Below, in pieces: positions 7,166 through 10,679 of a stretch of DNA of 64,000 bases; the stretch's first letter is position 1, and each line of letters starts with the position of its first letter. The stretch lies in the NCBI GenBank assembly GCA_943788865.1, contig CALSRX010000002.1:124001-188000 (forward strand). The letters run 5' to 3'. The DNA comes from an uncultured Polaribacter sp. GTDB lineage: Bacteria > Bacteroidota > Bacteroidia > Flavobacteriales > Flavobacteriaceae. The translations under genes were made by a program, and so were the position numbers. The notes under the pieces were generated by a model, which saw only the letters and a list, made by a program, of their open reading frames with translations, made no database searches and had not been told where the DNA came from.

Positions 7166-7195
7166 GTAACCTTAATAAAATACTCTAAGTCTTAC
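7166..7195 (+). promoter_or_regulatory. Candidate ECF-sigma promoter before serine hydrolase
   Basis: GTAACC at 7166-7171, a 17-base spacer, then GTCTTAC from 7189. The same GTAACC-N17-GTC arrangement occurs in both directions in the intergenic region of the ECF sigma gene about 3 kb away. The predicted start of transcription lies about 20 bases before ATG 7219. Confidence 0.55.
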
Positions 7196-7218: not shown

Positions 7219-8283
7219 ATGATACAAAAAATTAGAAAGTACTTATTACTTGTTAGCTCCATAACTGTTATCACAGTAGCACAATCTCAAACTAAAGAAA
7301 CCAAAATAGAAAAACTATTAAATGACAACTTTACACCTACAACTACTGGAGCAAGTGTATTAATTACTAAAAAAGGAAAAACCATTTATCGTAAAGCTTT
7401 TGGACTTTCAAATTTAGAATTGGAAACTAAAATGAAACCAGAAAATGTATTTGAAATTGGTTCTATGACAAAACAATTTACGGCAGTTTCAATCTTAATG
7501 CTTGTAGAACAAGGTAAGATTAGTTTGCAAGATGAAATCACCAAGTTTATTCCAGATTATCCAACACACGGACAAAAAATAACGATACATCACTTACTAA
7601 ATCATACTTCTGGCATAAAAAATTATACAAGCATGAATAAACTATTTAAAATAGCTAGAAATGATATAAACCCATTAGAGTTTATTAGTTTTTTTAAAGA
7701 TGAACCTGTAGATTTTAATCCAGGAGAAGAATACAAGTACAACAATTCTGGATATGTAATTTTAGGATATATCATTGAAAAAACCTCAGGCCTTTCATAT
7801 GCAGATTATGTGCAACAAAATATTTTCAATAAATTGAATATGAAAAATTCTTTATATGCAAGTCACAGTAAAGTTATAAAAAATAGAGCCTCAGGTTACC
7901 ACAATAGAATAGGCTATCAAAACGCTATGTATATCAGCTTCTCTTTACCATATGCGGCAGGTTCTTTAATGACTTCCATAGATGATTTAAATTTGTGGCA
8001 ACAAGCATTGTCTAATAATCTATTACTAAAAAAAGAAACTTTGCAAAAAGCATACACCAACTACACTCTAAATAACGGAGAAAAAGTCAATTATGGTTAT
8101 GGTTGGAATATCAAAACAATTAACAATGAAGTCTCTTACGAACATGGTGGTAGTATTTTTGGATTTAAATCAATGGGGATTTATATTCCGAGCAAAGATG
8201 TGTATGTAGTTATGTTGACAAATTGCGATTGTATTTCTCCAACACAATTAACAAGAGACATTACTAAAATTATTTTAGAATAA
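7219..8283 (+). CDS. Secreted serine hydrolase, beta-lactamase/class C family
   Basis: The 354-residue protein begins with a signal peptide ending near AQSQ (residues 21-24). The catalytic pattern of the beta-lactamase/DD-peptidase superfamily is intact: SMTK (S82-K85), the Y174-N-N element, and HGG at 309-311. Such proteins are periplasmic esterases, DD-carboxypeptidases or peptidases, and most are not true beta-lactamases. The upstream motif shared with the ECF sigma locus suggests envelope-stress control. The substrate is unknown. Confidence 0.88.
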   Translation: MIQKIRKYLLLVSSITVITVAQSQTKETKIEKLLNDNFTPTTTGASVLITKKGKTIYRKAFGLSNLELETKMKPENVFEIGSMTKQFTAVSILMLVEQGKISLQDEITKFIPDYPTHGQKITIHHLLNHTSGIKNYTSMNKLFKIARNDINPLEFISFFKDEPVDFNPGEEYKYNNSGYVILGYIIEKTSGLSYADYVQQNIFNKLNMKNSLYASHSKVIKNRASGYHNRIGYQNAMYISFSLPYAAGSLMTSIDDLNLWQQALSNNLLLKKETLQKAYTNYTLNNGEKVNYGYGWNIKTINNEVSYEHGGSIFGFKSMGIYIPSKDVYVVMLTNCDCISPTQLTRDITKIILE

Positions 8284-8367: not shown

Positions 8368-9219
8368 ATGAAAAAAATCTTATTCTTTTTATTTGCAACT
8401 ACATTTGCTGTTGCACAAACAAACACAGAAGTTTACCTATTTGAACTAAACAATGATAAGGGAAACTGGTCTGTTGGCAAAGGAAAAAATATTTCTAACA
8501 ATCCTGGTTACGACAGTCAGCCTTATTTTTACTCAAAGAATTCAATTATTTTTTCATCAACCAGAAATAATCAAACAGACATTGCTGAATATGATTTAAA
8601 ATCTGGTAAAATCAAATTTATAAGCAACACACCAAATGGAGGAGAGTATTCTCCGCAACGCATTCCAAAATCTAAAGATATCTCTGCGGTTAGATTAGAT
8701 ACTGATGGGTTACAAAGGTTTTACAAATACAATTATAAAACAGGCGAAAACACAGAAATTATAAAAGACTTAAAAGTAGCATATCCGATGTGGTACGACA
8801 AAAATACGGCCATAAATGTTGTTATTGTAGGTGACGATTTAGATTTAATTGTAAGCGAATTAAAATTAAAAAGAAATACCACGGTGCAAAAAAAAGTAGG
8901 AAGATCTTTACATCATATTCCAAATACTACTTTTATTAGCTATATCAATAAAGAAAAAGAACAATGGGAAATCACAATGTTTAACCCTAACAATGGTGAG
9001 CGTAGAAAAATTATTGAAACCGTAGGTAAAAAAGAAGATATTTGTTGGTTACCTGATGGCACAGTATTGATAGCTGTTGGAAACACAATCATGAAATTTA
9101 ACCCTGCAATAGATAAAAATTGGGGAATTTTTCATACGTTTCCTAAAAATAAATATAAAAATATTAGCAGAATTCTTGTAGACCCTAAAGGATCACAATT
9201 ACTTTTAGTATCAGATTAA
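8368..9219 (+). CDS. Secreted TolB-like beta-propeller protein
   Basis: A 283-residue protein with signal peptide MKKILFFLFATTFAVAQ. The body shows propeller-blade repeats of the WD40-like/TolB PD40 kind, for example NPGYDSQPYFY-IIFSSTR, GGEYSPQRIPKS and DICWLPDGTVLIA. In Bacteroidetes these secreted propellers are typically periplasmic and of unknown partner. The gene has its own -7 box and ends convergently, overlapping the anti-sigma gene by four bases. A hydrolytic role is unlikely because no catalytic domain is attached. Confidence 0.75.
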   Translation: MKKILFFLFATTFAVAQTNTEVYLFELNNDKGNWSVGKGKNISNNPGYDSQPYFYSKNSIIFSSTRNNQTDIAEYDLKSGKIKFISNTPNGGEYSPQRIPKSKDISAVRLDTDGLQRFYKYNYKTGENTEIIKDLKVAYPMWYDKNTAINVVIVGDDLDLIVSELKLKRNTTVQKKVGRSLHHIPNTTFISYINKEKEQWEITMFNPNNGERRKIIETVGKKEDICWLPDGTVLIAVGNTIMKFNPAIDKNWGIFHTFPKNKYKNISRILVDPKGSQLLLVSD

Positions 9220-9629
9220 TGCAAGCATTTTTCAAAAAACCCTTTTAAATAAATAATTTGAATTGTAACTAGTAGTCCAAATACTACTGTAATTGCAAAA
9301 GTTGTATTAGAAATTTTCAAGTTTTCAATTACACCTAAAAAACGAATTTTCTCAACAAAAGAAAAATTGAATTTTGGCAATGTAAAAAGCACTTCTTTAG
9401 CAGAATTTAAAGGAATAAATAGAATTGCCATAATTGCCAAGAAAATTACAAACCATCCTTTTTTAGAAATTAAAGGTTTATAAACTGTTGTAGTTTTTAA
9501 AGTTTCTAATGCTGTTATAGACTTCATTAAATTTGCAGTAAAATTTACCGTAGGAGTTTCAGTCGGAATCTCTTTAATATACTTTTTAGCAAAATTATTT
9601 ATTTCTTCTACGTGCTTATTTTCTCCCAT
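9216..9629 (-). CDS. Probable anti-sigma factor, membrane protein
   Basis: A 137-residue protein with a cytosolic N-terminus of about 50 residues and two transmembrane helices near 56-73 and 107-128. Its start overlaps the end of the ECF sigma gene by 14 bases, so the two are translationally coupled, which is the usual layout of a sigma/anti-sigma pair. No zinc-binding HxxxCxxC motif is visible, so the anti-sigma role rests on position and topology only. Confidence 0.65.
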   Translation of the reverse strand: MGENKHVEEINNFAKKYIKEIPTETPTVNFTANLMKSITALETLKTTTVYKPLISKKGWFVIFLAIMAILFIPLNSAKEVLFTLPKFNFSFVEKIRFLGVIENLKISNTTFAITVVFGLLVTIQIIYLKGFFEKCLH

Positions 9630-10199
9630 AATGACTAATTAATTCTGGTTCTACTGTGTTTTTTACAATGCTCAATAATTTTTTTCGAGCTCTGTGTAAT
9701 TTTACTTTTACGTTTGCTTCACTCATAGAAGTTACCTCTACAATTTCTTTCAAACTTAACTCTTTAAAATAAAAAAACAATAAGATTGCTTTTTCATCTT
9801 CTGGCAATTGCTCTAAACAATTGTTTATAATTACAGCTCTTTCTTCCCTTTCTATTCCGTCTAAAATTGTTTCTACTGAAGAAATATAATTAATGGTAAT
9901 CTCATCAATTGTTACATTTTTATTCTGAATCGAATTCTTTTTAATGGCGTCTAAACATGTATTGTAAGCAATTTTATACAACCAAGTAGAAAATTTAGCA
10001 TCTCCTTTAAACTTAGGCAAGTACTTATATGCTTTTAAAAAGCATCTTGTGCAACTTCTTCTGCAACCTCTCTATTCTTTACCATTTTTATTGCCAATGT
10101 AAAAACCATGTCTTTATACTTATCAATTAAGAAAGCAAAAGCATTAGAATCTCCATGTAAGATTTTTTCTATATAGTTTTCGTCAGTTAGCTTGGCCAT
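9616..10199 (-). pseudogene. ECF sigma-70 factor, interrupted by a -1 frameshift
   Basis: Two overlapping frames encode one ECF sigma factor of about 194 residues. The first (10199 to 10035, 54 residues, ending VAEEVAQDAF) carries the region 2 start. The reading must slip back one base at the T run 10041-10037, where TTT is followed by TAA, to continue LKAYKYLPKFKGDAKF and region 4, NCLEQLPEDEKAILLFFYFKEL-LKEIVEVTSMSEANVKVKLHRARKKL. Everything except the frame is intact. It may be a decayed gene, a sequencing error, or a slippage-dependent gene, since U-UUU-UAA is slip-prone. The linked anti-sigma gene is intact. Confidence 0.8.
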
Positions 10200-10205
10200 T
10201 ATTCT

Positions 10206-10235
10206 CTTTGACTCTTGTAAATGTATTTAGGTTAC
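10206..10235 (-). promoter_or_regulatory. Candidate ECF promoter of the sigma gene
   Basis: On the minus strand GTAACC (10235-10230), 17 bases, then GTCAAAG (10212-10206). The start of transcription would fall within a few bases of ATG 10199, implying a very short leader or leaderless message. It is the mirror image of the promoter at 10271. Confidence 0.55.
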
Positions 10236-10276
10236 AAAAAATGATTAAAAAAATTATTTTTGTTTTTTTTGTAACC
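10230..10276. repeat. Perfect 12-bp inverted repeat in divergent promoter
   Basis: GGTTACAAAAAA (10230-10241) and TTTTTTGTAACC (10265-10276) are exact reverse complements separated by 23 bases. Each arm contains the -35-like GTAACC element of one of two divergent promoters. Confidence 0.8.
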
Positions 10277-10300
10277 TTTATTTTAAAGTTTCAGTCATAT
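10271..10300 (+). promoter_or_regulatory. Candidate ECF promoter of the 10341 gene
   Basis: GTAACC (10271-10276), 17 bases, GTCATAT (10294-10300). The predicted transcription start is about 34 bases before ATG 10341. Confidence 0.55.
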
Positions 10301-10340: not shown

Positions 10341-10679
10341 ATGGAAGTAGCAGTATTAGCAATTATTTTTGGAAGTATATTCGGAGTTTTCTATTTATAC
10401 TTTTCAACAAGAAACAAAGAAAGATTAGCATTGATAGAAAAAGGTGCTGAAGCAAAAATATTTGCATCAGGCAAAAATCAATCTTCTTTCGGTAAAGTTT
10501 TTATCTTAAACATTGCCTTATTATCTATGGGAATTGGTTTAGGGATATTAATTGGCTCTATTTTAAATACAACTTTAGGCTTAGAAGAAGAAGTAGCTTT
10601 TCCAGCATCTATTTTCTTAACTGCAGGAGCGGCACTTTTTGTTGGATTTAATATGACAAAAAAAATGGATAACGAATAA
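10341..10679 (+). CDS. Small membrane protein, DUF6249-like
   Basis: A 112-residue protein with an N-terminal helix at residues 3-23, a short basic cytosolic loop (STRNKERLALIEKGAEAKIF), and two further helices near 53-73 and 85-103. The topology and the ERLALIEKG segment fit the small DUF6249-type proteins often found beside ECF sigma/anti-sigma genes in Flavobacteriaceae; the family name is from memory. It is divergent from the sigma gene and shares its mirrored promoter, so it is a probable regulon member. Confidence 0.7.
   Translation: MEVAVLAIIFGSIFGVFYLYFSTRNKERLALIEKGAEAKIFASGKNQSSFGKVFILNIALLSMGIGLGILIGSILNTTLGLEEEVAFPASIFLTAGAALFVGFNMTKKMDNE

Follow-up and report, generated by a model that had tools for sequence, protein, structure and literature searches.

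Conserved, predicted head-to-head ECF-type promoters between a sigma factor gene and a DUF6249 gene in Polaribacter and its relatives

A predicted intergenic promoter pair and the genes around it

The genes considered here lie in a window of 64,000 nucleotides from an uncultured Polaribacter sp. (family Flavobacteriaceae), in which an ECF sigma factor gene and the small gene that overlaps its end face leftward, while a gene for a membrane protein with a DUF6249 domain faces rightward (Table 1). The original prediction was that the stretch between the two divergent genes carries GTAACC-N17-GTC on both strands, and both copies are indeed present where it had placed them. On the minus strand, ten nucleotides separate the GTC from the sigma ATG at position 10199, and on the plus strand the distance to the DUF6249 ATG at position 10341 is 44 nucleotides. 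The accompanying argument that identical spacing on the two strands is hard to explain by chance holds as well: under a first-order Markov model of the window, the 141-bp gap would be expected to hold about 9e-5 copies of the motif on the plus strand and about 1.0e-4 on the minus strand, and the expectation for both together is about 1e-8, a post hoc figure. When the spacer is allowed to vary from 16 to 18 nucleotides, the window contains three matches, compared with an average of 0.35 in 100 shuffled sequences, one of which also reached three. The third match, which was not part of the original prediction, precedes a serine hydrolase gene. For a promoter pair, we regard homology as a stronger argument than such chance statistics.

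Table 1. Genes, predicted promoters and other sequence features of the locus, with positions numbered from the first base of the window.
Feature	Position	Strand	Details
Third predicted promoter, same type	7166..7191	+	27 nt upstream of serine hydrolase ATG
Serine hydrolase gene, predicted target	7219..8283	+	beta-lactamase fold, PF00144
Putative anti-sigma factor gene	9216..9629	-	137 aa; start overlaps sigma gene end by 14 nt
ECF sigma factor gene	9616..10199	-	SigW/RpoE-like, regions 2 and 4; frame interrupted at 10037-10041
Sigma-operon ECF-type promoter (predicted)	10210..10235	-	-35 GTAACC 10235-10230, N17, -10 GTC 10212-10210
Perfect 13-bp inverted repeat	10229..10277		arms 10229-10241 and 10265-10277; two head-to-head -35 elements and T-tracts; read as incidental
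DUF6249-gene ECF-type promoter (predicted)	10271..10296	+	-35 GTAACC 10271-10276, N17, -10 GTC 10294-10296
A+T-rich conserved leader segment	10313..10331	+	consensus tAAAa.tAAtcatt.aAAa, from alignment
DUF6249 membrane protein gene, presumed target	10341..10679	+	PF19762, 112 aa, three hydrophobic segments

The leftward gene encodes a sigma factor of the ECF type, in which regions 2 and 4 of the sigma-70 family are both recognizable. In the window, the C-terminal part of the protein matches PF08281, PF04545 and part of PF04542, and in an intact relative of 194 aa (locus L045) the TIGR02937 model for ECF sigma-70 factors scores 115.4 against a cut-off of 42.9. The best solved-structure relatives of that protein include SigW, sigma-H and RpoE. 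The same protein stays under the NCBIfam equivalog cut-offs for SigW (123.8 versus 209), RpoE (93.6 versus 236) and SigX (82.5 versus 260), and it also fails to reach the thresholds of sigma_PG0214 and Sig70_bacteroi1, two models built for Bacteroidota. An intact open reading frame for the sigma factor was not found in the Polaribacter genome itself, where the frame breaks at a five-base homopolymer and leaves an N-terminal part of 53 aa and a C-terminal part of 144 aa in different frames. The five closest relatives that were compared have an intact frame at this site, and the break is either a sequencing error or a real loss. A second broken sigma gene, with an in-frame stop at a different place, is found at locus L095 (genome G276).

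Downstream in the same operon, the 137-aa protein has two hydrophobic segments (residues ~59–77 and ~110–128) after some 58 residues, and tblastn finds relatives of it at 93 of the 98 orthologous loci described below. It has no match in Pfam or NCBIfam, and we consider it a putative anti-sigma factor. In front of the DUF6249 gene, an alignment of 91 of 98 leaders, from which the longer ones were excluded, reveals an A+T-rich conserved segment. In its own genome this segment has one exact match, which is itself, and 28 matches with at most two mismatches, compared with 14 in the control. The segment was considered as a possible common translation signal, a role that these counts do not establish. 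No known RNA family in Rfam reaches its gathering threshold between positions 9000 and 12000 of the window, and the one paper found to mention DUF6249 is on an unrelated subject.

Conservation of the predicted promoters and of a near-leaderless layout at the sigma start

Of 199 Flavobacteriaceae genomes, 87 (our own included) encode the DUF6249 protein, and 51 of the 97 from the genus have the sigma factor (E < 1e-39). From these we assembled a first set of 98 non-duplicate loci, consisting of 52 sigma loci from the 51 genomes of the genus and 46 loci from other genera of the family; besides our own, 86 genomes of the family have a DUF6249 match, of which 46 entered the set and 40 were left out. 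Two duplicates (L014 and L096) had been removed from an initial 100 loci, and a partial second copy of the sigma gene in G228 was left out of the counts. The sigma and DUF6249 genes are divergent at all 98 loci. GTAACC-N17-GTC stands on the sigma side at every one of them and on the DUF6249 side at 97, the exception being L069 where the spacer is N16, so that the check for the motif at orthologous sigma loci, which the original prediction had called for, came out clearly in its favor. An ECF-type -35/-10 pair before the sigma factor's own gene, conserved in orthologues, is what an autoregulated promoter should show, and it is found at 98 of 98 loci. Conservation extends beyond the two boxes to a T directly before the hexamer (98/98 on either side), an A three bases past the GTC (92 and 97 of 98 on the two sides) and a T-tract that begins to appear ~11–15 nt before the hexamer. 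Within the spacer, by contrast, no position is shared by more than 70 of the 98 loci on the sigma side or 83 on the DUF6249 side. At locus L091 (G253) the sigma and DUF6249 genes are separated by 1688 bp, and each promoter is still found beside its own gene.

A second set of 109 loci, which overlaps the first and includes our own locus, was made up of 80 from a scan of named records, among them the culturable environmental Polaribacter strain Hel1_85 (L206), and 29 from a phylum-wide draw. The divergent pair is present at 107 of these, and both promoters at 103 of the 107, including 80 of 80 from the record scan. All the exceptions come from the phylum-wide draw and lie outside the family: both promoters are missing or altered at L296 and L297, L299 retains only the DUF6249-side promoter and L301 only the sigma-side one, and the divergent sigma gene is absent at L298 and L300. 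The union of both sets contains 172 distinct promoter pairs.

The sigma side of the locus shows a further conserved property. ECF promoters usually start transcription 6–10 nt past the -10 element, and the distance from GTC to the sigma ATG is 9–12 nt at 89 of 98 loci (2 or 7 nt at two). The original prediction of an almost leaderless sigma message is thus upheld as a conserved layout, and the message would be leaderless or nearly so if it starts 6–10 nt after the GTC. At seven loci (L051, L053, L054, L055, L056, L059 and L068) there is no ATG, GTG or TTG in frame near the expected sigma start, and in five of these an in-frame stop follows right after the GTC. The codons that replace the start are ACA, ACG, CTA or TCA, with ATT two codons on. 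A Tenacibaculum lutimaris record (L249) likewise lacks a canonical sigma start codon. The different replacement codons in some Tenacibaculum and relatives suggest, as far as such a comparison of sequences can, that the start codon was lost more than once.

Motif matches beyond the locus

The original prediction also proposed a genome-wide scan for the motif near gene starts, and here the outcome was divided. In its crude form, GTAACC-N16..18-GTC is not enriched in its own genome, where its 13 matches are outnumbered by the 57 of the backwards control, and the enrichment test therefore fails in its plain form; taken alone, this count would have pointed to noise. Six of the 13 matches lie under a long open frame and a seventh (L009) is also inside an ORF. 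A broader pattern, TGTAAC-N16/17-CGTC, is uninformative in the same genome, with nine matches against eight in the control. The refined form that follows from the conservation analysis, TGTAACC-N17-GTCNNA, does separate signal from noise, and is the only one that does. In the 51 sigma-positive genomes of the genus it has 135 matches, compared with 82 for the backwards control. The locus itself accounts for 100 of the 135, and 48 of these genomes have two or more. In the 46 sigma-negative genomes—defined by the lack of a match below 1e-39, several of them being incomplete—it has eight matches (control 40), and none of these genomes has two. The 35 off-locus matches in sigma-positive genomes are fewer than the 82 matches of the backwards control. 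Fourteen of the 35, in 11 of the 51 genomes, lie outside other ORFs and are followed within 40 nt by the ATG of an ORF of 80 aa or more, a distance limit that was set after the first targets were known. These 14 cases comprise 11 of 32 scanned matches together with L156, L157 and the match at 7166 in the window. By comparison, none of the eight matches in sigma-negative genomes is so placed, all eight being inside ORFs, and in a control with spacers of 18–19 nt one of 20 sampled matches, taken from the top of the matches listed, lies upstream of an ORF. The contrast between 14/35 and 1/28 in the pooled controls gives a Fisher p of 0.0008, which overstates the independence of the cases because some of the 11 genomes are close relatives.

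Among ten off-locus downstream proteins that were scanned, five belong to PF00144—beta-lactamase-fold hydrolases, the family of the window gene at 7219—three are S33/alpha-beta hydrolases, one is a Rce1-like peptidase and one an esterase. Downstream proteins in G230 and G244 match the window hydrolase at 77% and 59% identity, and that of L173 resembles that of L172 by eye. Judged by the scanned families and these likenesses, the downstream proteins seem in all 14 cases to be hydrolases or peptidases. The N17 form of the promoter also precedes a related hydrolase gene in G228, G230, G201 and G244. The N-terminus of the window hydrolase looks like a signal sequence by eye, but no 19-residue window reaches a mean hydropathy of 1.5. 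More broadly, all 12 relatives of this hydrolase for which loci were obtained (the window's own included) have GTAACY-N16/17-GTC upstream, seven of them in the N16 form (L148–L153 and L155), one of which comes from G248, where this sigma factor is lacking. To judge from these sequences, it is probable that a related ECF factor recognizes GTAACY-N16-GTC, a close variant of the motif, and recognition would therefore not be wholly private to the sigma factor of the locus.

Several other observations were made in the same scans. An intergenic GTAACC-N17-GTC in the Polaribacter genome (L002, G000:C2:48597-48622) stands 36 nt before an ORF of 241 aa whose N-terminus, judged by eye, resembles that of a lipoprotein. 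An A replaces the T before the hexamer, which puts this site outside the refined motif, and the ORF is a possible further target. L006 and L008, near the ends of contigs C2 and C3 of the same genome, bear the motif in identical sequence, which suggests a repeat at contig breaks. Between the hydrolase gene and the sigma operon in the window, a weakly TolB-propeller-like gene (8368-9219) runs in the direction of the hydrolase, and may share its promoter.

A predicted ECF circuit, its precedents and its rivals

The best reading of these data, and one in which we have considerable confidence, is that the paired ECF-type promoters are both read by the neighboring sigma factor, and serve an autoregulated sigma/anti-sigma operon, a DUF6249 target and a small hydrolase regulon. 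The original prediction of divergent ECF promoters belonging to an autoregulated sigma factor accords well with the conservation of the motif at orthologous loci, from which recognition by this factor is deduced. Several results weigh against this reading: the crude motif lacks enrichment, off-locus matches are few and those just before an ORF are confined to 11 of the 51 sigma-positive genomes, the sigma frame is broken in this assembly, related hydrolase genes have the N16 variant, promoters are altered or missing at four distant loci, and seven loci have no usual start codon at the expected sigma start. In such a circuit, the intergenic stretch would hold two head-to-head promoters of the consensus TGTAACC-N17-GTCNNA with a T-tract ~11–15 nt upstream of the hexamer, and both would be recognized by RNA polymerase in complex with the product of the sigma gene at 9616-10199. 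The leftward transcript, leaderless or almost so, would encode the sigma factor together with the membrane-anchored putative anti-sigma factor, in an arrangement of positive autoregulation restrained by the anti-sigma factor. The rightward transcript would encode the DUF6249 membrane protein behind a leader of ~40 nt, and a third copy of the promoter would drive the serine hydrolase gene at 7219. Once the anti-sigma factor lets go of the sigma factor, perhaps under envelope stress, the condition named in the original prediction, levels of the sigma/anti-sigma pair and of the DUF6249 protein would rise, along with those of one or a few hydrolases that probably act outside the cytoplasm.

This proposed circuit has parallels in other bacteria. 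ECF factors of the SigW/RpoE type, including SigW and SigX of Bacillus subtilis and RpoE of Escherichia coli, are encoded in autoregulated operons with a membrane anti-sigma factor, and their promoters have an AAC-containing -35 element. The present system differs from that type in its divergent DUF6249 partner and in a putative anti-sigma factor without a recognized domain. For the motif itself, the closest precedent is sigma-F of Caulobacter crescentus, whose binding sequence is given as GTAACC-N16-CGAA in the excerpts of PMC3511200, and the hexamer GTAACC is thus already known rather than new. Sigma-F also has a small regulon, its operon includes NrsF as a putative anti-sigma factor, and highly similar promoters precede sigF and the next-numbered operon CC3254–CC3257 (PMC3511200, excerpts). 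However, Caulobacter is an alphaproteobacterium, its -10 element and spacer are CGAA and N16 where those described here are GTC and N17, so that the present pair does not match a sigma-F promoter, and sigma-F targets appear in the excerpted text as locus numbers, with no DUF6249 protein or hydrolases named. The same excerpts report that sigF is not strongly autoregulated and that its promoter also answers to another, unnamed regulator, which by analogy makes sigma-F a warning against assuming sole autoregulation.

Within the Bacteroidota, the SM6 promoters of Flavobacterium psychrophilum—a putative ECF regulon in the same family—have a CGT box at -10, and their targets include T9SS components, Band-7 proteins and one ECF/anti-sigma operon, but neither DUF6249 proteins nor hydrolases are among the SM6 targets in the excerpts of PMC9723704. 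According to the same excerpts, leaderless messages account for 5.5% of those examined in F. psychrophilum. SigP of Porphyromonas gingivalis, also a Bacteroidota ECF factor, binds the promoters of T9SS genes and interacts with PorX, but the motif suggested for it in the excerpts of PMC4800418, C(T)AAA(G/C/T)A(T)A(C)T(A/G)A, is different. PMC9723704, PMC12596196 and PMC7366714 do not contain the string GTAAC anywhere in their main text, and the motif is not shown in the excerpts of PMC12596196, PMC13088901 and PMC7366714. Nor is the motif or the locus described in the titles and abstract openings that a literature search returned; these were mostly of open papers, and absence from print is not claimed.

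Three other explanations deserve consideration. The most serious of them, though unlikely, is that the promoters chiefly serve some other ECF factor, or a group of ECF factors whose specificities overlap. It is favored by the N16 variant before a related hydrolase in a genome without this sigma factor, by the CGT-box motif of F. psychrophilum that is perhaps common to several ECF factors (PMC9723704, excerpts) and by the second regulator of the Caulobacter sigF promoter, but it sits poorly with the distribution of the N17 form, which occurs 100 times at the locus in the 51 sigma-positive genomes and eight times in the 46 sigma-negative ones (some incomplete), each time inside an ORF. Chance similarity in A+T-rich intergenic DNA might be invoked when the crude motif is counted in a single genome, where it does not exceed the control; the near-complete conservation on both sides of the locus, along with the very small expectation for two copies in one gap, makes this explanation negligible.

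The symmetry of the intergenic stretch raises the third alternative, namely that a dimeric transcription regulator binds the inverted repeat and governs both genes. The original prediction described a perfect 12-bp inverted repeat holding both hexamers, and a perfect repeat does exist between the divergent genes, albeit with arms one base pair longer, at 13 bp. Across loci, this mirror image is not preserved as a feature in its own right. Arms of at least 12 bp are found at only 20 of 98 loci, and the separation between the hexamers, which would be the half-sites, is 18–36 bp at 80 loci and 45–1564 bp at the remaining 18. The DUF6249 ATG is 41–54 nt from its GTC at 89 of 98 loci, two others standing out with distances of 138 and 212 nt, and where the gap has grown the promoters mostly remain close to their own genes. 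Moreover, the GTC 17 nt past each half-site is as conserved as the hexamer, which an operator leaves unexplained. A symmetric operator, for which conserved half-site spacing and symmetry would be expected, was thus rejected on spacing and is very improbable. The variable gap and the rarity of long arms point instead to two independent head-to-head promoters, and on this sequence evidence we read the inverted repeat as incidental.

With two independent promoters read by the neighboring sigma factor as the preferred explanation, a bolder view of the locus can be offered tentatively. It may be a compact ECF circuit of the Flavobacteriaceae with near-invariant promoters, a sigma message that is near-leaderless by design and an output that is also set at translation initiation, in which the sigma factor of some Tenacibaculum and relatives would be translated from a non-canonical codon such as ATT, and the products would be the DUF6249 protein and a small set of hydrolases that changes between lineages. 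This is a possibility to which we attach rather less than even weight. More immediately, a Flavobacteriaceae ECF factor gains a near-invariant predicted recognition sequence and two named, testable promoters. The window offers a third predicted target, and DUF6249 proteins a first functional lead. Finally, a sigma gene whose near-leaderless layout is conserved, and which lacks a usual start codon in some species, makes leaderless translation in Bacteroidota directly testable.
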